Below, piece by piece: positions 22,443-46,806 of a stretch of 46,806 bases of DNA. Each line of letters opens with the position of its first letter. Within the stretch, counting starts at the first letter, position 1. The notes under the pieces are model-generated. The model made no database searches and was not told where the DNA came from. It saw only the letters and a program-made list of their open reading frames with translations. The stretch comes from Mariniflexile sp. AS56. Its GTDB lineage: Bacteria; Bacteroidota; Bacteroidia; Flavobacteriales; Flavobacteriaceae. The position numbers were made by a program, and so were the translations under genes. The stretch spans positions 1 through 46,806 of the forward strand of contig NZ_JAUPED010000022.1 of the NCBI RefSeq assembly GCF_030552475.1, in the 5' to 3' direction.

Positions 22443-22479
22443 CATAACTATTATTTTTTAATCAAAATTCCGTCCATTG

Positions 22480-26292: not shown

Positions 26293-26307
26293 AAAAGTAT
26301 ACAGTGG

Positions 26308-26361: not shown

Positions 26362-26369
26362 AGAAGAAC

Positions 26370-29300
26370 ATGGCAAGAAAACAAGATAAGAATACAGTAA
26401 GGAGATTTAATAAAATCTCAATTGGTTTGGCATCACCAGAGTCTATTTTAGCAGAGTCTAGAGGTGAAGTTTTAAAACCAGAAACTATCAATTATCGAAC
26501 CCACAAACCAGAAAGAGATGGTTTGTTCTGTGAGCGTATTTTTGGTCCTGTAAAGGATTATGAATGTGCTTGTGGTAAATATAAAAGAATTCGCTACAAA
26601 GGTATTGTTTGTGACCGTTGTGGTGTTGAAGTAACCGAAAAGAAAGTACGTCGTGACCGTGTAGGACACATCAATTTAGTGGTGCCTGTTGCTCATATCT
26701 GGTATTTCCGTTCGTTACCAAATAAAATAGGTTATTTATTAGGCTTACCATCTAAGAAATTAGATATGATTATTTACTACGAACGTTATGTAGTAATTCA
26801 ACCAGGTAATGCTAAAAATGAAGAAGGTGAACCAATTCAAAAAATGGACTTCTTAACAGAAGAAGAATATTTGAATATACTTGAAGCTCTTCCTCAAGAT
26901 AACCAATACTTAGATGATAATGATCCAAACAAGTTCCTTGCTAAGATGGGAGCTGAATGTTTAATCGAATTATTATCTAGAATTGATTTAGAGGCTTTAT
27001 CATATGAATTACGTCATAAAGCAAATACTGAAACGTCTAAACAACGTAAAACAGAAGCTTTAAAACGTTTACAAGTTGTGGAGTCTTTAAAAGAATCTAA
27101 CAATAACCGTGAAAATCGTCCAGAATGGATGATTATGAAGGTAATTCCAATTATCCCACCAGAATTACGTCCGTTAGTGCCGTTAGATGGTGGTCGTTTT
27201 GCAACGTCTGATTTAAATGATTTATACCGTCGTGTAATTATCCGTAACAACCGTCTTAAAAGATTGGTTGAGATAAAAGCACCAGAAGTAATTTTACGTA
27301 ATGAAAAACGTATGCTACAAGAATCTGTAGATTCGTTATTTGATAATACACGTAAATCTTCAGCGGTTAAAACAGATTCTAACAGACCGTTAAAATCATT
27401 ATCAGATTCATTAAAAGGTAAGCAAGGACGTTTCCGTCAAAATTTACTTGGTAAGCGTGTGGATTATTCAGCACGTTCGGTAATTGTTGTTGGACCTGAA
27501 TTAAAATTACATGAATGTGGATTGCCAAAAAATATGGCAGCAGAACTTTACAAGCCTTTCGTAATTAGAAAACTAATTGAAAGAGGTATTGTAAAAACTG
27601 TAAAATCTGCAAAGAAAATTATAGACAAAAGAGAACCTGTGGTTTGGGATATCTTGGAGAACGTTCTTAAAGGACATCCAGTATTACTAAACCGTGCTCC
27701 TACGTTACACAGATTGGGTATTCAAGCGTTTCAACCTAAATTAATTGAGGGTAAAGCGATTCAATTACACCCTTTAGTTTGTACGGCGTTTAATGCGGAT
27801 TTTGATGGTGACCAGATGGCAGTACATTTACCATTAGGTCCAGAAGCTATTTTGGAGTGTCAATTATTAATGTTGGCATCACACAATATCTTAAATCCTG
27901 CAAATGGTTCTCCTGTAACTGTACCTTCTCAAGATATGGTACTTGGTCTTTACTACATGACCAAACTACGTAAATCGACTCCAGAAGTAAAAGTACAAGG
28001 TGAAGGTTTAACCTTTTATGCACCAGAAGAAGTTGAAATCGCTTTTAACGAAAAGAGAGTAGACTTAAATGCAGGTATAAAAGTTAGAACATTAGATATT
28101 AATGAAGATGGTAAATTAGCACCAACTATTATTGAAACTACTGTTGGACGTGTACTATTTAATCAAAAAGTACCTCAAGCAGCTGGTTACATTAATGAAG
28201 TTCTTACTAAAAAATCATTAAGAGATATCATTGGTGATATATTAAAATATACATCAGTTCCTGAAACTGCAGACTTCCTAGATGAGATTAGAACATTAGG
28301 ATTTATGTTTGCATTCCAAGGTGGTTTATCATTTAGTTTAGGTGATATTATTATTCCGCCAGAGAAACAAGGAATGATTGATAAAGCAAATACTTTAGTT
28401 GATGGTATTATGGGTAACTATAATATGGGACTTATTACCAACAACGAACGTTATAACCAAGTTATTGATATTTGGACTTCTACAAATGCGGAATTGACTG
28501 AATTGTCTATGAAACGTATTCGTGAAGATCAACAAGGATTTAACTCGGTGTTTATGATGCTTGATTCTGGTGCGCGTGGTTCGAAAGAACAGATCCGTCA
28601 GTTAACAGGTATGCGTGGATTAATGGCGAAACCTAAAAAATCGACTGCAGGTGGTGGTGAGATTATTGAGAATCCAATTCTTTCTAACTTTAAAGAAGGA
28701 TTATCAATTTTAGAATACTTTATCTCAACTCACGGTGCTCGTAAAGGTCTTGCGGATACGGCTCTTAAAACGGCCGATGCTGGTTACTTAACCCGTCGTC
28801 TAGTAGATGTTTCACAAGATGTTATTATTAACACAGAAGATTGTGGTACATTAAGAGGAGTAGAAGTAGAGCCATTAAAGAAAAATGATGAAGTTGTAGA
28901 AACTCTAGAGGAAAGAATTGTTGGACGTGTAGCGTTGAATGATGTTTACGATCCTTTAACTGATAATTTATTAGTAGCTTCAGGACAATTAATTGAAGAT
29001 CATATTGCTAAAGCAATACAAAACTCTCCAATTGATAGTTTAGAAGTACGTTCTGCATTAACATGTGAGGCATTACAAGGTATTTGTGCTAAATGTTACG
29101 GTCGTAACCTAGCTACAGGTAAAATGGTGCAACGTGGTGAAGCTGTAGGTGTAGTTGCTGCACAATCTATTGGTGAACCGGGTACACAGTTAACACTTCG
29201 TACATTCCACGTAGGTGGTATTGCAGGTAACATTTCAGAAGAGAATAAATTAGCAGTTAAATTTAACGGTATAGCCGAAATTGAAGATTTAAAAACTGTT

Positions 29301-30671
29301 AAAGGTAAAGATAAAGAAGGAAATGATATTGATATTATTATTTCACGTACATCTGAACTTAAATTAGTTGATAAGAAAACAGGCATTACTCTAAGCACGA
29401 ATAATATTCCTTATGGTTCTACTTTATTAATTAAAGACGGTCAAGAATTACAAAGAGGCGATGTAGTTTGTTCTTGGGATCCATATAACGGTGTTATTAT
29501 TTCAGAATTTGCTGGAAAAATTAAGTACGAAAACATCGAACAGGGTATTACTTACCAAGTAGAGATTGATGAGCAAACTGGTTTCCAAGAGAAAGTAATT
29601 TCTGAATCTAGAAACAAGAAGTTAATTCCAACACTTCATATTGAAGATGCTAGCGGAGAAACGATTCGTTCTTACAACTTACCAGTTGGATCTCACTTAA
29701 TGATTAACGACGGAGAGAAAATTAGCGTTGGTAAGATTTTAGTTAAGATACCTCGTAAATCTGCTAAGGCGGGTGATATTACAGGAGGTTTACCGCGTGT
29801 AACCGAGTTGTTTGAAGCACGTAACCCTTCTAATCCTGCTGTTGTAAGTGAGATTGATGGTGTTGTTTCTTTCGGAAAAATTAAACGTGGTAACCGTGAG
29901 ATTGTTATTGAATCTAAGTTAGGTGAAGTTAAAAAATACTTGGTTAAACTATCGAATCAAATTCTTGTTCAAGAAAATGATTACGTTAAAGCATGTATGC
30001 CTTTATCAGACGGTTCTATAACACCAAACGATATTTTGAATATTAAAGGCCCATCAGCAGTACAACAATACTTGGTAAACGAAGTACAAGAAGTTTATCG
30101 TTTACAAGGTGTGAAAATTAATGATAAGCACTTTGAGGTTGTTGTAAGACAGATGATGCGTAAAGTACAAATTATCGATTCTGGTGATACTCTTTTCTTA
30201 GAAGATCAATTAGCACATAAAGATGACTTTATCCAAGAAAATGATGCCATTTTCGGATTAAAAGTTGTTGAAGATGCAGGAGATTCTTCAAACCTTAAAG
30301 CAGGTCAAATAGTTTCGGCTCGTGATTTAAGAGATGAGAATTCAATTTTAAGAAGAGAAGATAAAAATCTTGTTACTGCAAGAGAAGCGAAACCAGCAAC
30401 GGCAACGCCAATCTTACAAGGTATTACAAGAGCGTCACTTCAAACAAAATCGTTTATATCGGCAGCATCTTTCCAAGAAACAACTAAAGTACTTAACGAA
30501 GCAGCAGTAGCTGGTAAAGTTGATAGTTTAGAAGGCTTGAAAGAAAATGTAATTGTTGGTCATAGAATTCCAGCAGGTACAGGAATGCGTAAGTATACTG
30601 ATATTATTGTAGGCTCTAAAGAAGAGTTTGATGAAATGATGCAAGTAAAGCAAGAATTAAATTATAATTAA
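26370..30671 (+). CDS. rpoC: DNA-directed RNA polymerase subunit beta-prime
   Basis: The 1433-residue beta-prime has the N-terminal zinc ribbon ([20 protein letters not shown]), the catalytic magnesium loop [16 protein letters not shown], the bridge-helix/trigger-loop segment ([20 protein letters not shown]) and the second zinc site (CGTLRG with [13 protein letters not shown]). Length and order are those of Bacteroidota. It is the last large gene of the operon, with a terminator about 80 nt after its stop. Confidence 0.99.
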
Positions 30672-30750
30672 TTAGATAGTTCTGCAACATCATAAATTCA
30701 GAATACATTACTATGTATATGAACGTGAGAGGTAGAAGTATATAAAAATA

Positions 30751-30785
30751 AAAGCCTTCATGTTAAATCAACTTGAAGGCTTTTT
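30751..30785 (+). terminator. Intrinsic terminator after rpoC
   Basis: The 10-bp stem AAAGCCTTCA / TGAAGGCTTT has a 13-nt loop and is followed by TT AATTT. It lies between rpoC and the DUF3467 gene. Confidence 0.8.
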
Positions 30786-30804
30786 AATTTAAAATATTAA
30801 GATT

Positions 30805-31122
30805 ATGTCAGACGAAAATGAAAACCCAAAACCAGGGCAAATTAATATAGAGTTGGATGAGCAGGTAGCTGAAGGAATTTATTCAAACTTAGCCATCATA
30901 AACCACTCGGTATCAGAATTTGTTGTAGATTTTGTGAGCATTATGCCAGGGGTACCTAAAAGTAAGGTGAAGTCTAGAATTATATTAACACCACAGCATG
31001 CTAAGCGATTGCTTAAAGCTTTAGGTGAAAATGTATCTAGGTTTGAAAATGCGCATGGTGAAATTAAAGATTATGAGCAACCACCAATGCCTTTGAATTT
31101 TGGACCAACTGGTCAAGCTTAA
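30805..31122 (+). CDS. DUF3467 family protein
   Basis: The 105-residue acidic protein is found next to rpoC throughout Bacteroidota. Typical blocks are QINIELDEQVAEGIYSNLAI and VDFVSIMPGVPKSKVKSRII, then TPQHAKRLLKALGENVSRFE. Function is unknown. The conserved position suggests a link to transcription or simple co-regulation. It lies between the rpoC terminator and a strong bidirectional terminator, so it can be its own unit or be reached by read-through. Confidence 0.92.
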   Translation: MSDENENPKPGQINIELDEQVAEGIYSNLAIINHSVSEFVVDFVSIMPGVPKSKVKSRIILTPQHAKRLLKALGENVSRFENAHGEIKDYEQPPMPLNFGPTGQA

Positions 31123-31123
31123 T

Positions 31124-31163
31124 AAAAAAAGCCTTTGATTTTTATAAATCAAAGGCTTTTTTT
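31124..31163. terminator. Bidirectional intrinsic terminator
   Basis: The 14-bp stem AAAGCCTTTGATTT / AAATCAAAGGCTTT is flanked by an A-run on the left and a T-run on the right, so it can end both the DUF3467 transcript and the converging ferredoxin-like gene. Confidence 0.92.
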
Positions 31164-31170
31164 ATGCTTT

Positions 31171-31398
31171 CTAAGCAACTTTTTTATTGGGGTAAAATTT
31201 AAGAGCTCCCGAAGGGCATTTTTTTACTTGACTGATTATTTTATCTGTAGATGCAGCGTCTAGGTTAATCCATGGAATTACAGAGTTTCTAAAAACATCT
31301 GAAAGTTCTCTAGCACAACGTTCGGCATGTATACATACACAAGGATCGAAGGTTACAGTTATATCTTCATTGGTGAAATAAGTAGCATTTGTTTCCAT
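31171..31398 (-). CDS. Small divergent 4Fe-4S protein (Fer4_19 / YjdI-like)
   Basis: The 75-residue protein matches the divergent mono-cluster ferredoxin family: VTFDPCVCIHAERC gives the first three cysteines in a C-x-C-x5-C pattern, and VKKCPSGALKFY gives the fourth with the typical CPSGA ending. One 4Fe-4S cluster is expected. The partner is unknown; in many genomes similar proteins are fused to or sit by CDGSH iron-sulfur domains, which are not seen here. It is convergent with DUF3467 and 141 nt downstream of prfC. Confidence 0.85.
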   Translation of the reverse strand: METNATYFTNEDITVTFDPCVCIHAERCARELSDVFRNSVIPWINLDAASTDKIISQVKKCPSGALKFYPNKKVA

Positions 31399-31539
31399 GA
31401 GTAGAGTGTTTTGGGGTTATTATTCTACATTAAAGTTAGTTTACATAAAACTCGATTTTGATCGGGATTCGATTAAATGTACTAAACTTTAGGTGAAATG
31501 CACTTTTTTTGCGATAAATTAGATTAACTGTCCTTTTTA

Positions 31540-33129
31540 TTAAGCGAATTCTGACGTAAAATGGAATTTTATGCTTGGATAGGTCTGTTGAGTCATTTGT
31601 AACGAGAAAGACGAGTCGGCTAAAAACACTAACTGGTTTTGTTTGTCTTTAGCTAAATAGCGCTGTTTTACACGTATAAACTCTTTGTACTCATCCGTCT
31701 TAGAATTAATAGGGTCTACCCAGCAGGCTTTAAATACATTTAAGTTTTCATAGGTACACTTGGCACCATATTCGTGTTCTAAACGGTATTGTATAACCTC
31801 GTACTGCAGCGCACCTACAGTTCCAATAACTTTTCTACCATTAAGTTCTAGTGTAAATAATTGGGCAACACCTTCATCCATTAATTGGTCTATACCTTTG
31901 TATAATTGTTTAGATTTTAATGGGTCGGCATTATTAATGTATCTAAAGTGTTCTGGTGAAAAACTTGGTATGCCTTTATAGTTAATGTTTTCACCTTCGG
32001 TTAAAGTATCTCCAATTTTAAAATTACCGGTATCGTGTAAACCAACAATATCACCTGGGTATGAAATATCTACAATCTCTTTCTTTTCAGCAAAAAAGGC
32101 ATTCGGACTTGAGAATTTTAGTTTTTTACCATTTCTAACATGTAAATACGGCTTGTTTCTTTCAAAAGTACCAGAAACGATTTTAATAAACGCTAGTCTA
32201 TCACGATGGTTGGGATCCATATTGGCATGTATTTTAAATACAAAGCCTGTAAACTTCTCCTCATTAGGCTCTACTAAGCGCTCTTCACTTTGTTTTGGGC
32301 GTGGTTTTGGGGCAATGTCTATAAAACAATCCAATAGTTCACGAACTCCAAAATTATTTAAGGCCGAACCAAAAAATACGGGTTGTAAATTTCCGTCCAA
32401 ATAGGCTTGTTTATCAAACTCTGGATAAATACCTTCAACCAATTCTATTTCTTCACGTAATTCTTTGGCAGCTGTGTCACCAATAAGTTTGTTTAATTCT
32501 GGTGCGTCTAAATTTGAAATTTCAATAGTTTCCTCAATATCTTTTCGACTATCACCACTAAACAAGTTAATGTTCTTCTCCCAAATATTATAAATACCTT
32601 TAAAATCGTATCCCATGCCTATAGGGAAACTTAAAGGCACCACTTTTAAACCTAGTTTTTGTTCAATTTCATCTAATAAATCGAAAGCATCTTTACCTTC
32701 TCTATCCATTTTATTGATGAAAACAATCATCGGGATATTACGCATGCGGCACACCTCAACTAATTTCTCTGTTTGTTCCTCAACCCCTTTGGCAACATCA
32801 ACAACAACGATAACACTATCAACAGCGGTAAGGGTTCTAAAAGTATCTTCAGCAAAATCTTTGTGACCTGGCGTATCTAGAATATTAATTTTGGTTCCGT
32901 TATATTCAAAAGCTAATACAGAGGTTGCAACCGAGATTCCACGTTGGCGTTCAATCTCCATAAAGTCACTGGTTGCACCTTTCTTTATTTTATTACTTTT
33001 TACAGCACCTGCTTCTTGAATAGCACCTCCAAAAAGAAGTAACTTTTCCGTTAAGGTTGTTTTTCCTGCATCAGGATGTGAAATGATACCAAAGGTTCTG
33101 CGTCTATTTATTTCACTTTTAAAACTCAT
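31540..33129 (-). CDS. prfC: Peptide chain release factor 3
   Basis: The 529-residue translational GTPase removes RF1/RF2 from the ribosome after termination. The G1 motif ISHPDAGKTTLTEKLLLFGG lies near the N-terminus, followed by the ERQRGISVATSV switch (G2), DTPGHKDF (G3) and NKMDREG (G4), then domains 2 and 3 of the RF3 type (VFFGSALNNFGVRELLDCFI). I chose the ATG at 33129 (MSFKSEINRRRTFGI); an ATG ten codons upstream only adds unconserved residues. It is a single-gene unit, divergent from the adhesin. Confidence 0.96.
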   Translation of the reverse strand: MSFKSEINRRRTFGIISHPDAGKTTLTEKLLLFGGAIQEAGAVKSNKIKKGATSDFMEIERQRGISVATSVLAFEYNGTKINILDTPGHKDFAEDTFRTLTAVDSVIVVVDVAKGVEEQTEKLVEVCRMRNIPMIVFINKMDREGKDAFDLLDEIEQKLGLKVVPLSFPIGMGYDFKGIYNIWEKNINLFSGDSRKDIEETIEISNLDAPELNKLIGDTAAKELREEIELVEGIYPEFDKQAYLDGNLQPVFFGSALNNFGVRELLDCFIDIAPKPRPKQSEERLVEPNEEKFTGFVFKIHANMDPNHRDRLAFIKIVSGTFERNKPYLHVRNGKKLKFSSPNAFFAEKKEIVDISYPGDIVGLHDTGNFKIGDTLTEGENINYKGIPSFSPEHFRYINNADPLKSKQLYKGIDQLMDEGVAQLFTLELNGRKVIGTVGALQYEVIQYRLEHEYGAKCTYENLNVFKACWVDPINSKTDEYKEFIRVKQRYLAKDKQNQLVFLADSSFSLQMTQQTYPSIKFHFTSEFA

Positions 33130-33466
33130 TGCTGCGTATTTTATATTAAGGAGGTGCAAAAATAATTATTTCATACCGTTAAAGCAGATTAATTACTGTT
33201 TTCTTTAAAAGTATTCTTCCATAACGTATTCAATTAAATAGAAGGCCCTCTAAAGGGAGTGTTTCGTGGCTAAATTACTTCAATTTAAGTGTTAAATATT
33301 GAGGTTGAGTGAGTTGGGTAAAAAGCCTTTTTTATCGAGTTTTGGTCGTCTTACCAAACGGCGCATCCGTCTACACTTTTTTGCCACTCATCGATATTGG
33401 CTCCTAATAAACAATTAAAAGGCGCTTATTTACATTCAGTTACGTCAATTTCTTAACAAGAATCCT
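33130..33466 (+). promoter_or_regulatory. Leader region upstream of the giant adhesin
   Basis: No gene is seen in these 337 nt. A 6-bp hairpin TTTGGT-CGTCTT-ACCAAA (33341-33358) is followed at once by a small CGG-CGCAT-CCG hairpin (33359-33369) and a T-run (33376-33382). No clear TTTG/TAnnTTTG promoter and no known riboswitch consensus could be found for either neighbour. The hairpin pair may be a structured leader or a terminator. Confidence 0.35.
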
Positions 33467-36400
33467 ATGAATTGCATTAAATGTATCTTTTTAAGGGCCA
33501 ATAATTTTAGAAGTATTATTATTGCTTCCCTTATTCTTTTGTTTTCACTAACGATATCAGCTCAAACGGCAGATATTCCGAAAGGGTCTATTATTATAGA
33601 TATGGGTGTGTTTCCACAAACAGTGGGTAACGCACTTAAACCTTATGGTTTGGTTTATGAATTGTTAGATGTTAATAAAGTACCCGTTCTATGGTCAATT
33701 AACAAAACTAAATTTAGAAACGGAGTAGACTTCACTGTAGACGGTTTAGATTTTAGAGGTGGTCCTTTTATTATTCATAAAGATTATACTCAAAACCAAT
33801 CTGTAATAAATAGTTTGGCAAATTGGGAAGCACAAGGTGTTGTAACCTATACTACTTTAACTGACGTAACAGTAGATTTACATAAAGAACTTACCACATT
33901 CCCAAACTGGGTAATGGATTTAGATAACGGCGCAATAGGAATAGAGTATATGGAGAACGCTGGTATACCAGCGACGGCATACAGACAAGATACACCATTA
34001 AACTTAAATGGTTGTGACGATTTATTTATTTTACCGCATGCCGATCCTACTTGGGCGACTCATGGTATTTTATACGATTGGAATAACACAAGAGCCAACG
34101 GAGGTAATGAAGGTTGGTTTTGGGCAGCATGTCACGCAGTTAGTGTATTGGAAGGAATTGAAAACCCATCGGACCCTACGCAAAGACTTAACTTTTTATC
34201 AAGCGACCCGGTGCCAGGTTTAATAGATTTTAATGCACATGATGATGGTTCTGGAGGGCCATATACTTATGATAACCCTTCAGATTCTTTTATGCAATTT
34301 TTAGGGCCTATTGATGCTGCTACTGAAAATGGATCGGAACAAGTGTACTTACCCAGTCCAGGTGGTAGTTGGAGACCAACAACCACAGTTTCTGTATGGG
34401 ATGAAAATCAAGCCGATTTATTAGCCGGAAATACACCAGGTAAAGCCGCAAAAGTGGCTTATGGTTTTGGTTTTGGAGATCCTGATAGAGGAAAAATAAT
34501 GTATGAGGGTGGGCATAGCCATAATAAAGGGTCTGTAGATGATGTCGCTGCACAACGTGTTATGCTTAATTTTTCGTTTGATGCACCAGCAGGTAAAACA
34601 CCTATTATAGTGAATAACCTGCCTGTTTCAGGCGCTATTGAAGGTGGAGAGTCTATTAGTTTTGATGCTTCGGCAGATTCGCCAATATCAGGAAGTAACA
34701 TTACATACTTATGGTCTTTTGATGGTGGCGGAGGTTCTTTTGATGATGTTAATATTCCTAATCCAACATTCTCAACATCACCCGTAACTAGTGTTGAAAA
34801 TTTAATTATAACGCTTATAGTTTCAGATCCTTGTGGTCGTGAAACTTTTTTGTCATTTCCGCTTGCGGTAAACCCACCGCCGGTGGCACCCGTTGCAAAT
34901 GATGATAATTATTCAACCTATAATACAACTTCTTTCGTATTTAATGCTTTAGATAATGATACAGATGATAACAATAATATAGACACCGCTACTTTCAACC
35001 CTACATCTGCACTTACTGTGGCTGGAGGTACTTTTTCAAGTAACGGTAATGGGTTTCTTAATTTTGAGCCTACACCTGGTTATGTTGGTACGGCACAATT
35101 AACTTATGAGATTTGTGATACAACAGCCCTTTGTGATACAGCAACTATTACGGTTACTGTAGAATCTAGTGGGTGTGGTGTTAACGAAAAACTTATTGGG
35201 TCGCCAGCATATGCCACTACAGTAACATCTGGTAATTTTAAAAATGATACCCGAGCATTAGGCGCCCCGAATGGTAATTTTGCTGAAGCAGATAAAGATG
35301 GACGTACTATGGTTCTCGATTTTGGTGCCGGTGTATCTCCTCGTGTGGGTAGTGTTATTAAATTCTATATATTAAGTAAAGATGGAGGTACGTATAATGG
35401 TACTATAAATGCGGATAACCAACTTTTGTTATTCCCATTTCCTGCAGCTACAGAAATTGCTGTTAGCACAAGTGCTTTAGCATCCAACCCAGATATTGTT
35501 GAGTTTACGGTAACAGAGGTGGGAACACGCTATGTTGAAATTACAGGTATAGATCAAGATTTCTCGGTCGATGCTGTAGAGTATGAACTTGAAACCTGTA
35601 CTCCTTACGTAAGTCCTGTAACCCAAGACGATTTAAGTGAAGATAATATAGTAGGCTCTGCGGTTCCTGTGTATTTGTTGGCTAATGATTCAGATGCTGA
35701 TGGTACTATAGACAGATCGAGCATTAATGTGATTGTACCTGCTAACGCTACAGATGTTGTGAATGATGTACATGGTCACGCTATTGGTTTTACAGTAGCT
35801 AATGAAGGTGTTTGGTTATTGGACCAAAAATTAGGGATCATTAACTTTACACCACGAGCATGGTTTTTAACAAACCCTACACCTATACAATATAGAGTAA
35901 ATGATAATGATGCTAATACGTCTAACATTTCAACCATCACTATTACCTATAATCTTATGGATACAGATGGTGATGGCGTACCAAATGGCTATGATTTAGA
36001 TGATGATAACGATGGTATTTTAGATACTAATGAAGGCTTTTGCTTGGCACCAGAACAATCTGGTACGTGGGGAGGCTCTGGGACTGAGGTTGTTTATAAT
36101 TTCGATAACGGGGTTATAGCACGTATATCTAATAACGCAACACCAGGTTTTACCGCCAACGGTAATTTTAATGCTGCTGGTAATAACTTCTGGTCTGAAA
36201 CGCTGGAAGGAGACGTTTCAATAGAAGGGCAATACCAGTGGGGCTCTACAGTTACGGTTAATTTTGAAGATGGGTATGGTAACCCATTAGTTATTGTAAA
36301 CCCCATTTTACATATTGATAGATTGGGCGAAATAAATGCCGGTAGTGGCGAGCAATATTCAGCAGAAATCACCTTGGTTGGTGGTGCCACATGGACACGA

Positions 36401-39400
36401 TTAACAGGAACAGACGATTTTCTGGCAACACCTACAACCGTAAGAGATGCCGGTGCAGGTTCGCTAGCCGATCCTTTATATACATCAGAAAGTACATTAG
36501 ATGATAGTGATGGTTCTGCAGCAGGTTCTTTGCAAATTAAAGGTAGAATTTCAAGCTTCCAATTACAAATTTCGCAAGCTGGTAATTTTGGAACGGCAGA
36601 TATTATGGAAATGATACTGTTTGCTTGTAATTATGTAGATTCCGATGAAGATGGTATTCATGACCACATGGATCCAGATAGTGATAACGATGGGTGTACC
36701 GATGCCGATGAAGCATATTATGGTTTAGAACCTGATGCCGATGGTGATAATAATGGTTTTTATGGAACAGGAACTCCAACAGTAGACTCTCGTGGTCTTG
36801 TAGTTGGCGCAAGTTATACAGGAACCAATAACATTTACACCAATACCATTCAAAACTCCTGTGATGATGTAGATGGAGATGGGGTGCCAGATGTTGGTGA
36901 TTTAGATAATGATAACGATGGTATTTTAGATGAAGATGAAACAAGAACAGTAGCTAATTTTCAACCTTCATGTGCAGGAACTGTTTTAAGTTTTATTAAT
37001 TATACAGAAGAAACAGGCGATGGTAATGCAAGCACCTTTTTAGTAGACGAAGTATTTAGATTTAGCGATGTCGCTGTAGGTTATGATGCTTTAGTAACCA
37101 TTGTTCAAACCTTTCATGCTGCCGTTGTAGATTTAGATGATAATGCGACAGATATAGGGTCGTTTAAACCCATAACCAGATTTACACTTCCTCATGTTGG
37201 TCATGAAGGTTTTGTGGAATATAGAATAGATTTTGTACAAGCGGGCACATCTACACCTGCAGGTTTAGCCGAATTTTTCGTGAACTATAATGATATAGAT
37301 GGCGATGGCTCGGGCGAATTCTCTGAAATAAATGCAACAACGTTTCCGGTAAGTTATACGCTTAATACGCCAACTAGCTTAACCATGGAAAATAAAGATT
37401 TGTTGTATGCTACAGGGCAAGCGGCCGTGTTTAATGGCTCAGGAAATGGCTTTCCAGAATCTAATTTTTCAGCAAGATATACCAATAGAAATTCACTTAC
37501 ACTTAGATTGGGAGGTGTTGCCATAGTTAAGAATGCTACTTCAACAGGAAGGTTGCATAATATAGAGTTTAATTGTGTTAGCAATTATATAAACCCATCA
37601 ACTATTATTACCGATGCCGATGGCGATGGTATCCCAAATAAATTTGATACCGATAGTGATAACGATGGTTGTGTTGATGCTTTAGAAGGCGATGGCGGGT
37701 TTACATTGGCGCAAGTAGCGGGAGATGGTAGCCTTGGTAATGCAGTAGATACTAATGGTGTACCAAGTATAGCAACTGGCGGGCAAGCAAACTTAAGTGC
37801 TTATGATGCGAGCGTTACAGGAGACCAATGTGATGATGATGGTGATGGCATTATTAATTTAAATGATATATGTGATGGTTTTGATGATACCGCAGATGCA
37901 GATGCAGATGGTGTACCAGATGGCTGTGATTTAGATGATGATAATGATGGTATTTTAGACAGTGTTGAATGTCCTGGTGAATTATATTATAATGATTCTT
38001 TTGAAGTGCCAGACATTCAAATATTAGGTGTTGATACAGTAGGAGGAAGACCAGATGCCGATAATGATGGCGAAGTAGATGCCTTATTAGCACAAAACTC
38101 TATTGAAGGATGGACTTTAACTGATACCAATAATTTCGATATTGTTTTTGATATTTTTAATGCATCAGCAGGAACTCAAAGTCTAGATTTATACGGAACT
38201 CCAAGTGCAACAGGTATTGAAAAAACATTTTTAGGATTTACAGAAGGGGTGCCCGTTAACTTTTCATTAGATTATAGTTCGGTTGAAAGTTTATTTGAAG
38301 CCGAAGTATCTGTCGATTATGGAACAGGTCCTATCTTATTAACAACCTTAAAACCAAATAATATTGCAGCGGTAGATAGTCCTGGAGTTGTGGGAGCAAG
38401 AGCGTCTTCCATTGTTTGGAATACCTTTACAATTAACTTATTACCAACAGCTTCCGGAACGGTAAAAATAATTATTCAGTCTACGAGTTTAGGTGTGGGG
38501 CAAACAGGGGTTTTAATTGATAATGTTATATTATCACAACCTTCGTGTTCAGATTATGATAACGATTCTATTCCAGATTATTTAGATATAGACAGCGATA
38601 ATGATGGTTGTAATGATGCTATTGAAGCAGGCCATATCGATGCCAATAATGATGGTGAAGTAGATGGTACTGGGTACGATGTTGAAGGTAAAGTAGCTGG
38701 GGCAGTTACGGCGTATACAGGCTTAACACCTGCAGTTACAAAAGCGGTACAAACAACGGTTACACCACCAGTAGCAGACGAAACCGTACAACAAGGCGAT
38801 AATGCGACTTTTACAGCCTCGGCTGCAGCATTAGAGGCTTCTAGTTTCACAGCAGGAACCCCAAATTACGATACGAATGCAGATGCTGGTTTAAGTTTTC
38901 AATGGTTTGAAAATGATGTGTTAATGCCAGGTGAAACCGCCAACAGCGTTACGTTAACTGCTGTTACTTTGGCGATGCATTCTAATGTATATAAAGTAGT
39001 TATAAGTCATACAGGAAATGCGTGTCCAGTTGAAGATGAAGGTGTGTTGTATGTGCAAGACCCAAGTATTGAGTCTGTTAAGACAGTTGTTTTAACCGAT
39101 GATGGAAATGGTGTTGATGGCGCTAACGATGTGCTTACCTACACCATTCTTGTAACCAATACAGGAAATACAGAACTTTCCAATGTAAATATTATAGATA
39201 CCTTATTAGATGCAAATGCAACACCATTAACTTTAACGAGTGGTCCAACATTTGTAGGTCCTTCAAATTTAGGGAGTGTAGAAGGTACGTTGTTAGTCGA
39301 TGAAATTGCAACTTATACAGCCACATATACTTTAACTCAAAATGATGCGAATGTAGGCGGTGTTTCTAATAGTGTCACAGCAAGTGGAGATACGTCTATC

Positions 39401-42400
39401 GCTATTAATGTGACCGATGTTAGTGATGATAATGATGATGCCGATGGAAACGTTTTAGACGATCCAACAGAAACAATTATTGTTGCTAATCCTGAATTAA
39501 TAACTACAAAAACCATAACAACATTTGGTCGTGTGTTAAATGACGTGATTGAATATGATATCATCGTTTTTAATAGTGGTAATGTAACCATAACAAATAT
39601 AGATGTTACAGATGCTAATGCGAATTTAGGAAGTATTGTTGGTAGCCCAATTGCGACTTTAGCACCCGGAGAAACAGCTATAGTGACGGCTTCACAAACC
39701 ATTACGCAAACCGATTTAAATGCCAAATTTATAGAGAATAGTGCTTCTGTTTTAGGTGATAGCCCTAACGGAGTGGATGATGTAAGTGATGTTTCAGATA
39801 CGGATGTTGATGGTAATGGTAGTGCCATACCAAATAATGAAACCATCGAATCACCAAACGGTAATGGAACAACCGATGCTGATGCAACGAACGATCCAAC
39901 TGTTACTTATTTTAATGGTGTGCCATTAGCCCAAGATGATGCTATTACAGTAAATGAGGATAGCGGTCTTACTATTATTAATGTATTGTTAGATAATGGA
40001 AGTGGCGCAGATACTTTTGGTCTTGATGGTCCAAATACAGGAGCTATTTCAATACCTTCTGCAACAAGTGCCAATGGTGGAGCTGTGTCTGTAAATAATA
40101 ACGGAACACCTACAGACCCAACGGATGATACCATATCTTATACACCTACCGCTAATTTTAACGGGACAGATACTATTGATTATACCATTACTGACGCCAA
40201 CGGAGACACCTCTTCGGCCACAGTAACCATCACCGTAAATCCTATTAATGATGCGCCGGTAGCCCTTAATGATCTAGCCACCACAGTAACAGAAGATGCC
40301 GTAACAATTCCTGTTTTAACAAACGACAGTGATGTAGATGGCGATGTTTTAACCATATCTGGTATTACAGTCCCTCCAACACAAGGAACCGTAGTTATTA
40401 ATGGCGATGGAACAATTACCTTTACACCAAATGTAACATTTGTAGCGGGTAGTGATACCTTTCAATATGAAGTTTGTGATGGTTCTGGATTGTGCGATAC
40501 AGCATCAGTAACGGTAACAGTGCCTAAAACGCCTTTACCACCTACAGCAAATTCAGATTCTAAAAGTTTTCCAGAAGATACCACCTTAACGGTAAATGCA
40601 GCAACGGGTCTTTTAAGTAATGATACAGATCCAAATGCCGATGAAACACTTACAGTGTCTCAATTTGTAGTGAATTCAATTACTTATACACCAGGTACGA
40701 CGGTAAATTTAGCAGAGGGTGACTTAACCATAAATGCTGATGGTAGCTATGTCTTTGTACCAACACCAAATTATTTCGGAGCGATTCCTCAAGTTGTTTA
40801 TACCATTTCAGATGGTAATGCTGGTACAGCTTCTAGTACATTAGATTTATTTGTGGTGTCTCAGAATGATTTACCAACAGCCTTAGATGATGCTGCAACG
40901 GTGAATGAAGATAGCGGAGCTACTATAATTGATGTGTTAGCGGATAACGGAAATGGCGTTGATAGCTTTGGTGGTGATGGTCCAAATGGAGGTGCCATTA
41001 CATTGCCAAGTCCTGTTTCTGCTAATGGCGGAACAGTAACCGTAAACAATAATGGAACACCAACAGACCCAACAGATGATACCGTAAGTTACACACCAGC
41101 ATTAGATTTTAATGGTGTCGATACCTTTACATATACCATCACAGATGCCAACGGAGACACATCAACAGCCACAGTAACGGTAACAGTAACGGCAGTTAAC
41201 GATTTACCAACGGCAGTAAACGATGCCGTAACTGTTAATGAAGATAGTGGCGCCAACATTATTAATGTACTAGCCGATAACGGAAGTGGTGCAGATAGTT
41301 TTGGTGGTGATGGTCCAAATAGTGGTGCCATAATTTTACCAAGCGCAACATCTGTGGAAGGTGGGACCGTAACTGTAAACGATAATGGAACAACCGATCC
41401 TACGGATGACACGGTAAATTATACACCTGCATTAGATTTTAATGGTGTTGATACCTTTACATATACCATTACCGATGCTAATAACGATACATCAACAGCT
41501 ACAGTAACCGTAACAGTAAATCCTGTGAACGATTTACCAACAGCCTTAGATGATGCCGCAACAGTAAATGAAGATAGTGGAGCTACCATTATTAATGTAT
41601 TAGCCGATAACGGAAACGGAGCAGATAGTTTTGGTGGTGACGGTCCAAATAGTGGCGCCATAATTTTACCAAGCGCAACTTCTGTTAATGGTGGTACAGT
41701 AACCGTAAACAATAACGGAACACCAACCGATCCAACAGATGATACGGTAAGTTATACACCAGCCTTAGATTTTAATGGTATTGATACCTTTACATATACC
41801 ATTACAGATTCTAATAACGATACATCAACAGCGACAGTAACGGTAACGGTTAATCCTGTTAACGATTTACCAACAGCTTTAGATGATGCCGCAACGGTGA
41901 ATGAAGATAGTGGAGCTACCATAATTAATGTGTTAGCCGACAACGGAAACGGCGTTGATAGTTTTGGTGGTGATGGTCCAAATAGTGGAGCCATAACCTT
42001 ACCAAGCGCAACATCTGTAGCAGGTGGTACAGTAACAGTTAATGATAATGGAACACCAACCGATCCAACAGATGATACCGTAAGTTATACACCTGCCTTA
42101 GATTTTAATGGTGTAGATACTTTTACATATACTATTACAGACTCTAATAACGACACGTCAACAGCGACGGTAACCGTAACAGTAAATGCTGTGAACGATG
42201 TGCCTTTAGCTAAAAATGATGTTGTAACTGTTGTTGAAGATAGTAGTGCTAACATTATTAATGTGTTAGCCGATAACGGAAACGGAGCCGATAGTTTTGG
42301 TGGTGATGGTCCAAATAGTGGGGCTATAACTTTACCAACTGGTACAACTACCAAAGGAGGAACCGTAACTGTAAATGATAATGGAACACCAGCAGATCCA

Positions 42401-45400
42401 ACAGATGATACCGTAATTTATACACCTGTTTCAGATTTTAATGGTCAAGATACTTTTACATATACCATTACCGATTCAAATAGCGATACATCAACAGCAA
42501 CAGTTACCGTAACAGTAAGTGCTGTGAACGATTTACCAATAGCAGTTGATGATGCTGTAACTATCAATGAAGATAGCGGTGCTACCATAATTAATGTACT
42601 AGCCGATAACGGAAACGGCGTTGATAGTTTTGGTGGTGATGGTCCAAATAGTGGGGCTATAACGTTACCAAGTGCAACCTCCGTTAATGGCGGAACAGTA
42701 ACAGTAAATAATAATGGAACACCAACCGATCCAACAGACGATTCAGTAAGTTATACCCCAGCATTAAATTTTAATGGTGTTGATACATTTACGTATACCA
42801 TTTCAGATGTAAATGGAGATCGATCTACTGCCACCGTAACAGTAACGGTAAATAGTGTGAACGATGTCCCTGTAGCAGTTGATGATAGTTATACCGTTAA
42901 TAAAAACGTAAGCGTTCAGTTATTACCATTAACGGCAGATTCGGATGCAGATGGTGATACTATAAGTATGGTATCTATCAACGGAATTGCGTTAACTCCA
43001 GGAATAGCACAAAGTATAGCGGTAACAAACGGAACCGTAACAACGGATACGGGAGGTATAATCACCTTCACACCAGATACCAATTATAGTGGATCCGTAA
43101 GTTTTCCATATGTTATTACAGATGGAACAGCAACTGCAACAGCAAATGAGATTATTACAATCAATCCAACAAACGATGCACCAATAGCAGTTGATGATAC
43201 CTATACAACAAATGAAGACACAGCTGTTCAATTAGTACCATTAACAGGAGATACCGATGTGGATGGTGATACCTTAAGTATAGTATCCATCAACGGAACT
43301 GCTTTAACACCAGGAACGGCGCAAACAATCGCAGTCACCAATGGTTCAGTGAGCATCAATACAGCAGGAGTTATTACATTCACACCAGCTGCCAATTACA
43401 ACGGTTCGGTAAGTTTCCCATATGTTATTACAGATGGAACAGAAACGGCAACAGCCAACGAAAACATTACTGTAAATGCCATAAACGATGCGCCAGTCGC
43501 AGTTAATGATGCTTACACTACAGATGAAGATACTAATATTCAATTATTACCATTAACGGGTGATAGCGATGTGGATGGTGATACTTTAAGTATTGTATCC
43601 ATTAACGGAACCGCATTAACTCCAGGAACTGCTCAAACAATTGCAGTGACTAACGGATCAGTGGATATCACAATAGGAGGAGTCATCACGTTTATTCCAA
43701 ACACCAATTACAACGGCGCAGTAAGTTTTCCATATGTTATTACAGATGGTACCGTAAACGCTACAGCGAATGAAACAATTACTATAACGCCGGTAAATGA
43801 TACTCCAGTGGCGGTCGATGATTTATCAACCACCAATCCAGGTGTGGCCGTGACAATTCCTGTTTTAACCAACGATACAGATGTTGACGGTGATGTCTTA
43901 ACGGTTTCAAGTATTGTAACAGTACCCGTAAATGGTACGGTTGTAATCAATGGAGATGGAACAATCACCTATACACCAAATCCAGGTTTTGAATTTGGAT
44001 CAGATACGTTTGAATATGAAGTATGTGACGGTTCGGGATTATGTGATATCGCATTAGTAACCGTTGAGGTTCCAAAATCCTTTTTACCGCCAACGGCAAA
44101 CCCAGATGCGAAGAGTACTTTAGAGAACACAACATTAACGGTTGCAGCAGCTACTGGATTATTAAGTAATGATACGGATCCTAATTCAGATGAAACTTTA
44201 GTCGTTACGACTTTTGAAATAGGCGGAACAACCTATACAGCTGGAACCACAGTTAATTTAACAGAAGGTGATTTAACAATCAATACTGATGGTAGTTATG
44301 AGTTTGTACCAGCATTCAATTATAATGGAGCAGTACCACAAGTCACTTATAGCATAAGTGATGGTAATGGAGGCACAAGTAGTAGTACATTAGATATTAC
44401 GGTAACTTTAGTAAACGAAACTCCTGTTGCGGTTGATGATGCATACACTACAGATGAAGATACGAGTGTACAATTATTACCATTAACAGACGACACCGAT
44501 GGAGATGGTGATACCTTAAGTATTGTGTCTATTAACGGGATTACCTTAACCCCAGGAACAGCACAAAGTATCGCTGTGACCAACGGTACCGTAACCATTG
44601 ATATACCTGGGATTATCACATTTATACCAGATGCGAATTATAACGGTGCTGTAAGTTTTCCATATGTTATTACAGATGGAACAGCAACGGCAACAGCCAA
44701 TGAAAATATTACAGTAACCTCGATAAACGATGTTCCTGTAGCCGTGGATGACGCGTATACTACGGATGAAGATACGAGCGTTCAATTACTTCCTTTAACG
44801 GCTGATTCGGATGGGGAAGGAGATACTTTAAGTATTGTATCCATCAACGGGATCACATTAACGCCCGGTACTGCACAAACAATCGCAGTAACTAACGGTA
44901 CAGTAACTACAGATACAGCAGGAATCATCACGTTCACACCTGCAACCAATTACATTGGAGGTGTGAGCTTTCCATATGTTATTACAGACGGAACGGATAC
45001 AGCAACGGCGAACGAGATTATTACAATTACGCCAGTAAACGATGCGCCAATAGCGGTTGATGATACGTATACAATAGATGAAGATACAAGCGTTCAGTTA
45101 TTACCATTAACGGCGGATACTGATGCAGATGGCGATACCTTAAGTATCGTATCGATTAACGGAACAACTTTAACACCAGGAACGGCACAAACAATTACAG
45201 TGACTAATGGTACAGTTACCACAGATACAGCGGGAATTATCACGTTCACACCAGCAGTCAATTATAACGGATCAGTAAGCTTCCCATATGTAATTACAGA
45301 TGGAACAGATACCGCAACGGCGAATGAAAACATTTCTATAACGCCTGTAAACGATGCTCCAGTGGCGGTTAATGATTTATCAACCACCAATCCAGGAGTC

Positions 45401-46806
45401 GCTGTAACTATACCTGTTTTATCAAACGATACAGATGTTGATGGAGATGCATTAACAGTGTCAAGTATTGTTACACCTCCAGTAAATGGAACGGTCGTAA
45501 TCAATGGAAATGGAACCATTACTTATACTCCTAACGCTGGGTTTAATGTAGGATCAGATACTTTCGAATATCAAGTATGTGATGGTTCAGGTCTATGTGA
45601 TATCGCATTAGTAAGAGTTGATGTTCCAAAATCTTTTGTACCGCCAACCGCAAATCCAGATTCGAAAAGTACTTTAGAGAATACGACTCTAACAGTTGCA
45701 GCAGCTACCGGATTATTAAGTAATGATACAGATCCTAATGCCGATGAAACTTTAGTTGTTACAAACTTTGTAATTGGAGGTATCTCATATAGTGTAGGGG
45801 TAACTCAGAATTTAACGGAAGGAGCTTTAACCATAAATAGTGATGGTAGCTATGAATTTGTACCAGCACTCAATTATAATGGAGCAGTGCCTCAAGTAAC
45901 ATATAACATAAGTGATGGTAATGGTGGTACAAGTAGTAGTACATTAGATATCACAGTAACTTTAGTAAATGACACACCAGTCGCAGTAGATGATGCGTAC
46001 ACTACAGATGAAGATACGAGTATTCAAATATTACCTTTAACAGGAGATACAGATGGTGATGACGATACTTTAAGTATTGTGTCCATCAACGGAATTACTT
46101 TAACTCCGGGAACAGCACAAACAATAACAGTTACTAATGGTAAGGTTACCGTTAATACAGCAGGAATAATTGTCTTTACTCCAGCGGCAGATTATAACGG
46201 CGGAGTAAGTTTCCCATATGTAATTACGGATGGTACAGCAACGGCAACAGCTAATGAGAATGTCACAGTAAACGCAGTAAATGATACACCAATAGCAGTG
46301 GATGATGCGTATACGACCGATGAAGATACAGCTGTTCAATTATTGCCATTAACAGCAGATACCGATCCAGATGGCGATACCCTAAGTATTGCATCGATTA
46401 ACGGAACCGCATTGACGCCAGGAACAGCACAGTCCATTGCAGTAACCAACGGAACCGTAGATATTGATATCGCAGGCGTGATCACATTCACGCCAGCCGC
46501 TAATTACAACGGCGCAGTAAGTTTCCCATATGTAATTACAGATGGTATAGATACAGCAACCGCTAATGAAAACATCACCGTAACCGCCATCAACGATGCT
46601 CCAGTAGCCGTCGATGATACGTATACGACCGATGAAGATACGTCAGTTCAATTATTACCATTAACTGGAGATACTGATTTAGACGGTGATACCTTAAATA
46701 TAGTTTCTATCAACGGAACGACTTTAACCCCAGGAACAGCACAGTCCATTGCAGTAACCAACGGAACCGTAGATATTGATATCGCAGGTGTGATCACCTT
46801 CACCCC
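33467..46806 (+). CDS. Giant secreted repeat adhesin (Ig/cadherin-like, TSP3, DUF11, PKD), 3' end outside the window
   Basis: The reading frame is open from the ATG at 33467 to the window end, at least 4446 residues. Residues 1-33 form a signal peptide ending TISAQ. Then, in order: an enzyme-like domain (about 40-370; Cys222-His223, GHSH 349-352), a PKD-like domain (about 378-470), a cadherin-like domain (about 473-565), a beta-sandwich (about 567-710), six TSP3 calcium-binding clusters with lectin-like inserts (831-1722), two DUF11-like domains (1867-2150) and about 2300 residues of Ig/cadherin-like repeats of four types (A, B, C, D). In Flavobacteria such proteins are exported by the type IX system and act in adhesion or gliding, SprB being the model; the sorting domain would lie beyond the window. 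Frame checks at many points show no interruption. Confidence 0.92.
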   Translation, partial: MNCIKCIFLRANNFRSIIIASLILLFSLTISAQTADIPKGSIIIDMGVFPQTVGNALKPYGLVYELLDVNKVPVLWSINKTKFRNGVDFTVDGLDFRGGPFIIHKDYTQNQSVINSLANWEAQGVVTYTTLTDVTVDLHKELTTFPNWVMDLDNGAIGIEYMENAGIPATAYRQDTPLNLNGCDDLFILPHADPTWATHGILYDWNNTRANGGNEGWFWAACHAVSVLEGIENPSDPTQRLNFLSSDPVPGLIDFNAHDDGSGGPYTYDNPSDSFMQFLGPIDAATENGSEQVYLPSPGGSWRPTTTVSVWDENQADLLAGNTPGKAAKVAYGFGFGDPDRGKIMYEGGHSHNKGSVDDVAAQRVMLNFSFDAPAGKTPIIVNNLPVSGAIEGGESISFDASADSPISGSNITYLWSFDGGGGSFDDVNIPNPTFSTSPVTSVENLIITLIVSDPCGRETFLSFPLAVNPPPVAPVANDDNYSTYNTTSFVFNALDNDTDDNNNIDTATFNPTSALTVAGGTFSSNGNGFLNFEPTPGYVGTAQLTYEICDTTALCDTATITVTVESSGCGVNEKLIGSPAYATTVTSGNFKNDTRALGAPNGNFAEADKDGRTMVLDFGAGVSPRVGSVIKFYILSKDGGTYNGTINADNQLLLFPFPAATEIAVSTSALASNPDIVEFTVTEVGTRYVEITGIDQDFSVDAVEYELETCTPYVSPVTQDDLSEDNIVGSAVPVYLLANDSDADGTIDRSSINVIVPANATDVVNDVHGHAIGFTVANEGVWLLDQKLGIINFTPRAWFLTNPTPIQYRVNDNDANTSNISTITITYNLMDTDGDGVPNGYDLDDDNDGILDTNEGFCLAPEQSGTWGGSGTEVVYNFDNGVIARISNNATPGFTANGNFNAAGNNFWSETLEGDVSIEGQYQWGSTVTVNFEDGYGNPLVIVNPILHIDRLGEINAGSGEQYSAEITLVGGATWTRLTGTDDFLATPTTVRDAGAGSLADPLYTSESTLDDSDGSAAGSLQIKGRISSFQLQISQAGNFGTADIMEMILFACNYVDSDEDGIHDHMDPDSDNDGCTDADEAYYGLEPDADGDNNGFYGTGTPTVDSRGLVVGASYTGTNNIYTNTIQNSCDDVDGDGVPDVGDLDNDNDGILDEDETRTVANFQPSCAGTVLSFINYTEETGDGNASTFLVDEVFRFSDVAVGYDALVTIVQTFHAAVVDLDDNATDIGSFKPITRFTLPHVGHEGFVEYRIDFVQAGTSTPAGLAEFFVNYNDIDGDGSGEFSEINATTFPVSYTLNTPTSLTMENKDLLYATGQAAVFNGSGNGFPESNFSARYTNRNSLTLRLGGVAIVKNATSTGRLHNIEFNCVSNYINPSTIITDADGDGIPNKFDTDSDNDGCVDALEGDGGFTLAQVAGDGSLGNAVDTNGVPSIATGGQANLSAYDASVTGDQCDDDGDGIINLNDICDGFDDTADADADGVPDGCDLDDDNDGILDSVECPGELYYNDSFEVPDIQILGVDTVGGRPDADNDGEVDALLAQNSIEGWTLTDTNNFDIVFDIFNASAGTQSLDLYGTPSATGIEKTFLGFTEGVPVNFSLDYSSVESLFEAEVSVDYGTGPILLTTLKPNNIAAVDSPGVVGARASSIVWNTFTINLLPTASGTVKIIIQSTSLGVGQTGVLIDNVILSQPSCSDYDNDSIPDYLDIDSDNDGCNDAIEAGHIDANNDGEVDGTGYDVEGKVAGAVTAYTGLTPAVTKAVQTTVTPPVADETVQQGDNATFTASAAALEASSFTAGTPNYDTNADAGLSFQWFENDVLMPGETANSVTLTAVTLAMHSNVYKVVISHTGNACPVEDEGVLYVQDPSIESVKTVVLTDDGNGVDGANDVLTYTILVTNTGNTELSNVNIIDTLLDANATPLTLTSGPTFVGPSNLGSVEGTLLVDEIATYTATYTLTQNDANVGGVSNSVTASGDTSIAINVTDVSDDNDDADGNVLDDPTETIIVANPELITTKTITTFGRVLNDVIEYDIIVFNSGNVTITNIDVTDANANLGSIVGSPIATLAPGETAIVTASQTITQTDLNAKFIENSASVLGDSPNGVDDVSDVSDTDVDGNGSAIPNNETIESPNGNGTTDADATNDPTVTYFNGVPLAQDDAITVNEDSGLTIINVLLDNGSGADTFGLDGPNTGAISIPSATSANGGAVSVNNNGTPTDPTDDTISYTPTANFNGTDTIDYTITDANGDTSSATVTITVNPINDAPVALNDLATTVTEDAVTIPVLTNDSDVDGDVLTISGITVPPTQGTVVINGDGTITFTPNVTFVAGSDTFQYEVCDGSGLCDTASVTVTVPKTPLPPTANSDSKSFPEDTTLTVNAATGLLSNDTDPNADETLTVSQFVVNSITYTPGTTVNLAEGDLTINADGSYVFVPTPNYFGAIPQVVYTISDGNAGTASSTLDLFVVSQNDLPTALDDAATVNEDSGATIIDVLADNGNGVDSFGGDGPNGGAITLPSPVSANGGTVTVNNNGTPTDPTDDTVSYTPALDFNGVDTFTYTITDANGDTSTATVTVTVTAVNDLPTAVNDAVTVNEDSGANIINVLADNGSGADSFGGDGPNSGAIILPSATSVEGGTVTVNDNGTTDPTDDTVNYTPALDFNGVDTFTYTITDANNDTSTATVTVTVNPVNDLPTALDDAATVNEDSGATIINVLADNGNGADSFGGDGPNSGAIILPSATSVNGGTVTVNNNGTPTDPTDDTVSYTPALDFNGIDTFTYTITDSNNDTSTATVTVTVNPVNDLPTALDDAATVNEDSGATIINVLADNGNGVDSFGGDGPNSGAITLPSATSVAGGTVTVNDNGTPTDPTDDTVSYTPALDFNGVDTFTYTITDSNNDTSTATVTVTVNAVNDVPLAKNDVVTVVEDSSANIINVLADNGNGADSFGGDGPNSGAITLPTGTTTKGGTVTVNDNGTPADPTDDTVIYTPVSDFNGQDTFTYTITDSNSDTSTATVTVTVSAVNDLPIAVDDAVTINEDSGATIINVLADNGNGVDSFGGDGPNSGAITLPSATSVNGGTVTVNNNGTPTDPTDDSVSYTPALNFNGVDTFTYTISDVNGDRSTATVTVTVNSVNDVPVAVDDSYTVNKNVSVQLLPLTADSDADGDTISMVSINGIALTPGIAQSIAVTNGTVTTDTGGIITFTPDTNYSGSVSFPYVITDGTATATANEIITINPTNDAPIAVDDTYTTNEDTAVQLVPLTGDTDVDGDTLSIVSINGTALTPGTAQTIAVTNGSVSINTAGVITFTPAANYNGSVSFPYVITDGTETATANENITVNAINDAPVAVNDAYTTDEDTNIQLLPLTGDSDVDGDTLSIVSINGTALTPGTAQTIAVTNGSVDITIGGVITFIPNTNYNGAVSFPYVITDGTVNATANETITITPVNDTPVAVDDLSTTNPGVAVTIPVLTNDTDVDGDVLTVSSIVTVPVNGTVVINGDGTITYTPNPGFEFGSDTFEYEVCDGSGLCDIALVTVEVPKSFLPPTANPDAKSTLENTTLTVAAATGLLSNDTDPNSDETLVVTTFEIGGTTYTAGTTVNLTEGDLTINTDGSYEFVPAFNYNGAVPQVTYSISDGNGGTSSSTLDITVTLVNETPVAVDDAYTTDEDTSVQLLPLTDDTDGDGDTLSIVSINGITLTPGTAQSIAVTNGTVTIDIPGIITFIPDANYNGAVSFPYVITDGTATATANENITVTSINDVPVAVDDAYTTDEDTSVQLLPLTADSDGEGDTLSIVSINGITLTPGTAQTIAVTNGTVTTDTAGIITFTPATNYIGGVSFPYVITDGTDTATANEIITITPVNDAPIAVDDTYTIDEDTSVQLLPLTADTDADGDTLSIVSINGTTLTPGTAQTITVTNGTVTTDTAGIITFTPAVNYNGSVSFPYVITDGTDTATANENISITPVNDAPVAVNDLSTTNPGVAVTIPVLSNDTDVDGDALTVSSIVTPPVNGTVVINGNGTITYTPNAGFNVGSDTFEYQVCDGSGLCDIALVRVDVPKSFVPPTANPDSKSTLENTTLTVAAATGLLSNDTDPNADETLVVTNFVIGGISYSVGVTQNLTEGALTINSDGSYEFVPALNYNGAVPQVTYNISDGNGGTSSSTLDITVTLVNDTPVAVDDAYTTDEDTSIQILPLTGDTDGDDDTLSIVSINGITLTPGTAQTITVTNGKVTVNTAGIIVFTPAADYNGGVSFPYVITDGTATATANENVTVNAVNDTPIAVDDAYTTDEDTAVQLLPLTADTDPDGDTLSIASINGTALTPGTAQSIAVTNGTVDIDIAGVITFTPAANYNGAVSFPYVITDGIDTATANENITVTAINDAPVAVDDTYTTDEDTSVQLLPLTGDTDLDGDTLNIVSINGTTLTPGTAQSIAVTNGTVDIDIAGVITFT
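35957..38631 (+). other. Six thrombospondin type 3 clusters within the adhesin
   Basis: Calcium-binding D-x-D-x-DG strings begin at 35960 (DTDGDGVPNGYDLDDDNDG), 36638, 36863, 37613, 37832 (the longest, with DADADGVPDGCDLDDDNDG) and 38552. Each ends in a D/E-rich tail, and folded inserts of 60-230 residues separate them. The repeat is expected to form a rigid calcium-loaded rod. Confidence 0.88.
39932..40882 (+). repeat. First A-C-D set of Ig/cadherin-like repeats in the adhesin
   Basis: One A repeat (39932-40264, 333 bp), one C repeat (40265-40546, 282 bp) and one D repeat (40547-40882, 336 bp). C and D recur later with exactly the same lengths. D contains LLSNDTDPNADETLTVSQF and ends in SDGNAGTASSTL. 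Confidence 0.9.
40883..42877 (+). repeat. Tandem array of six A repeats
   Basis: Units begin at 40883, 41216, 41546, 41879, 42212 and 42545: 333 bp (111 codons) each, except the second, which is one codon shorter (TTDPTDD instead of TPTDPTDD). Each contains NEDSGATIINVLADNGNG, DSFGGDGPNSGAI, TPALDFNGVDTFTYTITD and STATVTVTV. The phase is exactly kept, so the array grew by whole units. Confidence 0.95.
42878..44431 (+). repeat. Higher-order repeat unit 1 (B-B-B-C-D)
   Basis: 1554 bp: B at 42878, 43190 and 43502 (312 bp each), C at 43814 (282 bp), D at 44096 (336 bp). B is recognised by YTTDEDTSVQLLPLT, DGDTLSIVSINGTALTPGTA and VSFPYVITDGT. The first B is the most divergent (YTVNKNVSVQLLPLT). 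Confidence 0.95.
44432..45985 (+). repeat. Higher-order repeat unit 2 (B-B-B-C-D)
   Basis: 1554 bp with boundaries at exactly the same offsets as unit 1: B at 44432, 44744 and 45056, C at 45368, D at 45650. Confidence 0.95.
45986..46806 (+). repeat. Higher-order repeat unit 3, partial (B-B-B...)
   Basis: B repeats begin at 45986, 46298 and 46610, again 312 bp apart; the third is cut by the window end. A 59-bp stretch is identical in B2 and B3 (46418-46476 and 46730-46788), showing a recent exchange or duplication. C and D are predicted just outside the window. Confidence 0.93.

Follow-up and report, generated by a model that had tools for sequence, protein, structure and literature searches.

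An exact 1554-bp five-domain period in a giant tandem-95 gene of Mariniflexile sp. AS56

Does an exact repeat of whole domain blocks in a giant gene mean that the gene is still growing block by block, in the manner of satellite DNA? The question is raised by contig C15 of Mariniflexile sp. AS56 (NZ_JAUPED010000022.1, one of the 49 contigs in the genome), which in its entirety (46806 bp) is the window analysed here. A giant gene on its forward strand (33467..46804, 4446 codons, with the 3' end missing where the contig ends) carries five-domain blocks, B-B-B-C-D, that start every 1554 bp. The original prediction likened them to satellite DNA more than to ordinary tandem immunoglobulin (Ig) repeats and supposed that an adhesin gene expands by such blocks. 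We found that the period is exact, and that neither the satellite comparison nor a present block-wise expansion is implied by it.

The product is a tandem-95 repeat protein, with a whole-protein score of 1015.9 bits against NF012211 (curated cut-off 90) and 1084.9 against PF17963 Big_9 (cut-off 23.6). The matches to Big_9, Cadherin_5, Cadherin_4 and the CshA repeat lie far over their cut-offs. From about residue 2150 the domain order is A0-C0-D0, A1-A6, B-B-B-C-D twice and B-B-(B).

Register of the block and position of its B domains

The blocks start at 42878, 44432 and 45986, with inner boundaries at +312, +624, +936 and +1218, so that the register originally predicted was confirmed in its starts, boundaries and spacing. 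Block 1 (42878..44431) consists of B1 (42878-43189), B2 (43190-43501) and B3 (43502-43813), each of 312 bp, followed by C (43814-44095, 282 bp) and D (44096-44431, 336 bp), and block 2 (44432..45985) has parts of the same lengths. These two are complete; the contig stops at 46806 inside the third (45986..46806), in which B1 and B2 are whole and B3 is cut after 197 bp. When 42878-46806 was compared with itself at lags from 50 to 2199, the best self-match by far was found at 1554 (77.3% identity), the other lags above 42% being 312 (55.7), 624 (43.2), 930 (42.4), 1242 (54.4), 1866 (58.0) and 2178 (46.5). This profile and the exact boundaries indicate that the pattern is not due to chance. The period is exact because the domains have fixed in-frame lengths (3 x 312 + 282 + 336) without indels. 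An earlier C-D pair (40265-40882, formed by the older copies C0, 40265..40546, and D0, 40547..40882) sits 3549 bp, not 1554, ahead of the next C-D pair, indicating that the 1554-bp spacing belongs to this stretch and not to the whole gene. The six A domains at 40883..42877, all 333 bp long except the second (330 bp), are a separate domain type, amplified on its own. Searches of the genome for the rest of the array found matches on this contig alone, both with the last 200 bases (9 matches) and with the DNA of block 1 (4 matches).

Satellite- or titin-like organisation implies that like-positioned units are more alike across blocks, and the B positions taken together are not. In the three blocks the mean nucleotide identity of B pairs was 0.752 for the same position, 0.758 for different positions and 0.777 for adjacent domains, and 81% of the 36 possible relabellings matched or beat the true positions (rank p 0.81). 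In the B tree, clades for position 2 (approximately unbiased (AU) test, p 0.00013) and position 3 (AU p 0.0044) were rejected, and the sole firm pair is formed by the neighbours B2.3 and B3.3 (support 99/99). Compared window by window, the best match was the same-position copy in 6 of 13 block windows, all of them within or beside C-D, and in none of the seven mainly within B; the mean identities are the fairer test since in the window count more other copies compete against the same position. C and D match their own kind only. To judge by the sequence, the three B parts of the block are interchangeable, and it is C and D that give the block its identity. The satellite comparison is not supported for the B domains.

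Blocks 1 and 2 have diverged considerably, with 1215 of 1554 bases identical (78%) and 80% identity in the protein. The rate of synonymous substitutions per synonymous site (dS) was 0.79 between C1 and C2 (82.3% nucleotide identity) and 0.90 between D1 and D2 (82.1%). The B units are 70-86% identical, the 36 B pairs having a dS from 0.6 to 3.2, and no exact repeat of at least 60 bp is found within 40265-46806. Dating of the events by synonymous sites was too noisy and was dropped. The array thus bears no apparent sign of recent block-wise growth, and the stalk to which it belongs is likely an old one, grown by duplication, rather than satellite-like DNA still expanding.

Blocks and C-D pairs in related proteins

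We surveyed 120 proteins (the 120 listed out of 1342 matches, minus P0014, the window's own copy, plus P0001, the protein under study), a set chosen by likeness to the block and hence no random sample. In a strict test a block had to span 300 residues or more, recur in no fewer than 2.5 copies at 55% identity and surpass every shorter lag in identity by 0.2 or more. It was passed by 10 of the 120, this gene among them, and a looser test admitting blocks from 170 residues by 66. A cruder survey (89/120, margin 0.2), which already counted a pair repeated once, was replaced by the stricter test. Multi-domain blocks are thus frequent among the relatives surveyed, which weakens the contrast originally drawn with ordinary tandem Ig repeats. 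In the nine other proteins that passed the strict test, the best match was the same-position copy in 8/8 windows of P0075, 10/10 of P0106, 8/8 of P0051, 9/10 of P0108, 7/9 of P0024, 7/11 of P0007, 12/19 of P0091, 6/17 of P0038 and 3/10 of P0087, against the 6/13 of this gene, indicating that clean and mixed blocks both occur.

A profile built on the three C-D pairs exceeded 200 bits in 8 of the 120 proteins; P0001 is one of these, and in the other seven the pairs are unevenly spaced. B3-C-D was matched at E<=1e-40 in 5 of 299 genomes of the family, the own genome being one of them. A tree was built from the 28 C-D rows that scored above 120 bits (eight proteins, four loci). In it the pairs of blocks 1 and 2 cluster with each other (Shimodaira-Hasegawa-like approximate likelihood ratio test, SH-aLRT, 96) and C0-D0 joins them weakly (61).

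The single-contig genome G179 has a fresh array with both levels of repeat, on the reverse complement of locus L044 at about 2296-8700. It opens with thirteen 309-bp units that have a mean identity of 95%. Then come 909-bp X-C-D blocks; two of these are identical at 903 of 909 positions, and a third, partial block is identical at 534 to 540 of 570. The C-D pair of G179 has 60% protein identity to that of the window. These fresh blocks show that block duplication with such a C-D pair does occur, while in the window it is old. Of the expansion by whole blocks first proposed, then, the two-level repeat and the occurrence of block duplication in this class stand, and no such expansion is seen in the gene itself. 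In the open-access literature, searched by title and the start of the abstract, we found nothing on higher-order blocks in tandem-95 proteins.

N-terminal domain, cysteines and candidate end of the protein

The N-terminal domain (33554..34900, forward strand, including the PKD-like domain that follows it) is predicted to have a ThuA/class I glutamine amidotransferase-like fold. The catalytic triad of this fold is Cys-His-Glu, and across 41 rows of the domain the invariant positions include C193, E200, E262 and H321. A Pfam profile search of the domain at E<=0.1 gave no ThuA or amidotransferase match and two weak PKD matches alone, and comparison by sequence with solved structures gave no match at E<=1. 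Four copies are present in the own genome (C15, C3 and two on C1), and none was found in the five other genomes of the genus (1/6, the own genome). A pattern scan of genome contigs gave 8 matches, of which 0 were confirmed, the own genome possibly lying outside the scan. Upstream of the gene are found rpoB, rpoC and, on the opposite strand, prfC (22477-33159).

After residue 1991 the protein has six cysteines, all arranged as CxxxxxC, one pair in each of the three C domains, including those of the C-D pairs of block 1 (43814..44431) and block 2 (45368..45985). One further CxxxxxC pair, at 550, belongs to a lone early domain. None of the 28 C-D rows has one cysteine without the other; 15 have both and the rest have neither. 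Furthermore, among 1213 hairpins matched in the 120 proteins with a hand-made pattern, a set whose tandem and related copies do not count as independent cases, 251 had both cysteines, 4 the first only, 0 the second only and 958 neither. The pair in each C domain therefore likely forms a disulfide, as suggested by this all-or-none pattern. A strand-to-strand disulfide has been described in a Mobiluncus adhesin (PMC10619420). A low-confidence model of the block, built from two rows, places the pair at the ends of the neighbouring strands 374-383 and 389-398. The cadherin and Ig structure matches of this model were not leaned on, given its predicted local distance difference test (pLDDT) score of 52.4 and two-row input, and by sequence the block gave no match to solved structures at E<=0.001.

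The start of contig C46 is a candidate for the 3' end of the giant gene. Among 27 tandem-95 matches in the genome it is the sole frame open at a contig start, and C46:1-1488 contains a type B sorting domain (TIGR04131, 36.7 bits, cut-off 35; CHU_C, 67 bits, cut-off 27). The frame is directly followed by a PorP/SprF gene (TIGR03519, 258.9 bits), and the whole locus (L020, 1-4400 of C46) runs from the tandem-95 frame with its type IX sorting domain to the PorP/SprF and PorE/OmpA-like genes. The tail, from residue 111, had no relative at E<=1e-5 among 239 of the 240 proteins in the set. The name adhesin was a guess. Fibrillar adhesins are defined, in PMC8286594, by an adhesive domain besides the stalk domains, and no adhesive family was found among the Pfam matches of the available part of this protein, whose 3' end is missing.

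Proposed growth of the array and comparison with known systems

We favour, with a probability of roughly 60%, the following reading. The repeat would be part of the predicted stalk of a giant cell-surface protein, made of Ig/cadherin-like domains, with the B-B-B-C-D block returning every 1554 bp. This stalk would have lengthened long ago as segments holding the C-D pair were duplicated in frame; exchange among the B domains, by gene conversion or unequal recombination, probably erased the positional signal afterwards. The B domains would be exchangeable spacers and C, the sole cysteine-bearing domain of the repeat stalk, would add a disulfide-stapled domain at intervals. The amidotransferase-like domain may be what the stalk carries outward, and export could proceed through the type IX secretion system, with the end of the protein on C46. 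A more tentative version, which we consider doubtful, sees in the period a mechanical one, with C-D as a disulfide clasp at each fifth domain whose places would be fixed by selection, B spacers shuffled by recombination, and an enzyme-like head instead of a binding tip.

Several observations weigh against the favoured reading. The B tree, of nine short units, is weak (one of six inner branches starred) and does not reject a position-1 clade (p 0.138), so that the clustering of B domains, originally put forward as the test of position in the block, came out against it at positions 2 and 3 and left position 1 standing. Four-fold sites are alike in C-D (49/97), same-position B (59/124) and different-position B (123/264), with p 0.69 for C-D versus same-position B, and dates thus cannot tell whether block duplication with exchange, or some different sequence of events, took place. 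The link between C46 and C15 is not bridged by sequence. The block model is poor. As for the disulfides, the hairpin copies are interdependent, as mentioned above, cysteine pairs are present in only 32 of the 120 proteins, and of the nine other proteins that passed the strict test seven lack cysteines in their blocks altogether. Disulfide staples are therefore no general rule, which also counts against the clasp as a general law.

Pure duplication of whole blocks, satellite-like and without later exchange, would keep every B in its place, and the gene would still change length in steps of 518 residues. It accounts for the exact 1554-bp spacing, has a fresh parallel in the 909-bp duplication of G179, and agrees with the position-1 clade not being rejected and with the dS of B3.1-B3.2 (0.86), near those of C and D. 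Yet the rejected clades already contradict it for B2 and B3, the B domains carry no positional signal, exact repeats of at least 60 bp are absent from 40265-46806, and within the same gene C-D pairs are also spaced by 3549 bp; we consider it unlikely. The insertion of a C-D pair after every third domain of a pre-existing B array, by which the period would be that of the inserted pair and not of a block, seems to us decidedly improbable. Under this explanation it would be mere coincidence that each complete block has exactly three B domains. No difference is seen at four-fold sites, and precise in-frame insertion between domains is rarer than tandem duplication, although C0-D0 does follow an A domain far from any B, pair distances are irregular in relatives, and the C-D pairs of blocks 1 and 2 (508/618 identical) are more alike than their same-position B domains (707/936). 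That the contig stops inside the repeat might suggest an assembly artefact, with copies falsely joined or collapsed. We give this hardly any credit: 22% of sites differ between blocks 1 and 2, and no exact 60-base repeat exists in the array at 40265-46806, so short reads can place the copies, and comparable arrays exist in the single-contig genome G179.

The old in-frame duplication with B exchange that we favour suggests that an exact period, however striking, is not by itself a sign that a giant surface gene is now expanding block by block. Here a distinct C-D pair maintains the period, and the B domains beside it keep no memory of position. The old array of the window and the fresh one of G179 make a test pair for the growth and ageing of giant bacterial stalks, and the all-or-none cysteine pair and the enzyme-like head are directly testable features.

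Among known systems, the tandem-95/Big_9/Cadherin_5 giants (NF012211, PF17963, PF17892) share the same domain families, include relatives with multi-domain blocks and have close C-D pairs in proteins of Urechidicola croceus and Polaribacter. Unlike them, this gene has a five-domain block with three interchangeable B domains, whereas the others vary in block size and space their C-D pairs irregularly. The super-repeats of the titin A-band (as described in PMC10665226) are likewise repeats of repeats of Ig-type domains, with the difference that the B domains here lack a like-position effect. Periscope Proteins (PMC8201768 and PMC9704523) also have a stalk of tandem folded domains, the SasG unit being the two-domain E-G5, and vary in length through highly similar DNA repeats, whereas the B units here are at most 86% alike and the array has no high-identity tandem DNA repeats (B 70-86%; no exact 60-bp repeat). 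The giant adhesin of Mobiluncus mulieris (PMC10619420) likewise has a long Ig-like stalk and an adjacent-strand disulfide in one solved domain; its repeat domains number 51 and carry ester and isopeptide cross-links. The Olduvai triplets of the human NBPF genes form a similarly gene-tied higher-order repeat, with a monomer of about 1.6 kb (PMC9584774). The giant gene of Mariniflexile sp. AS56 illustrates well a kind already known, the tandem-domain giant with a higher-order block.
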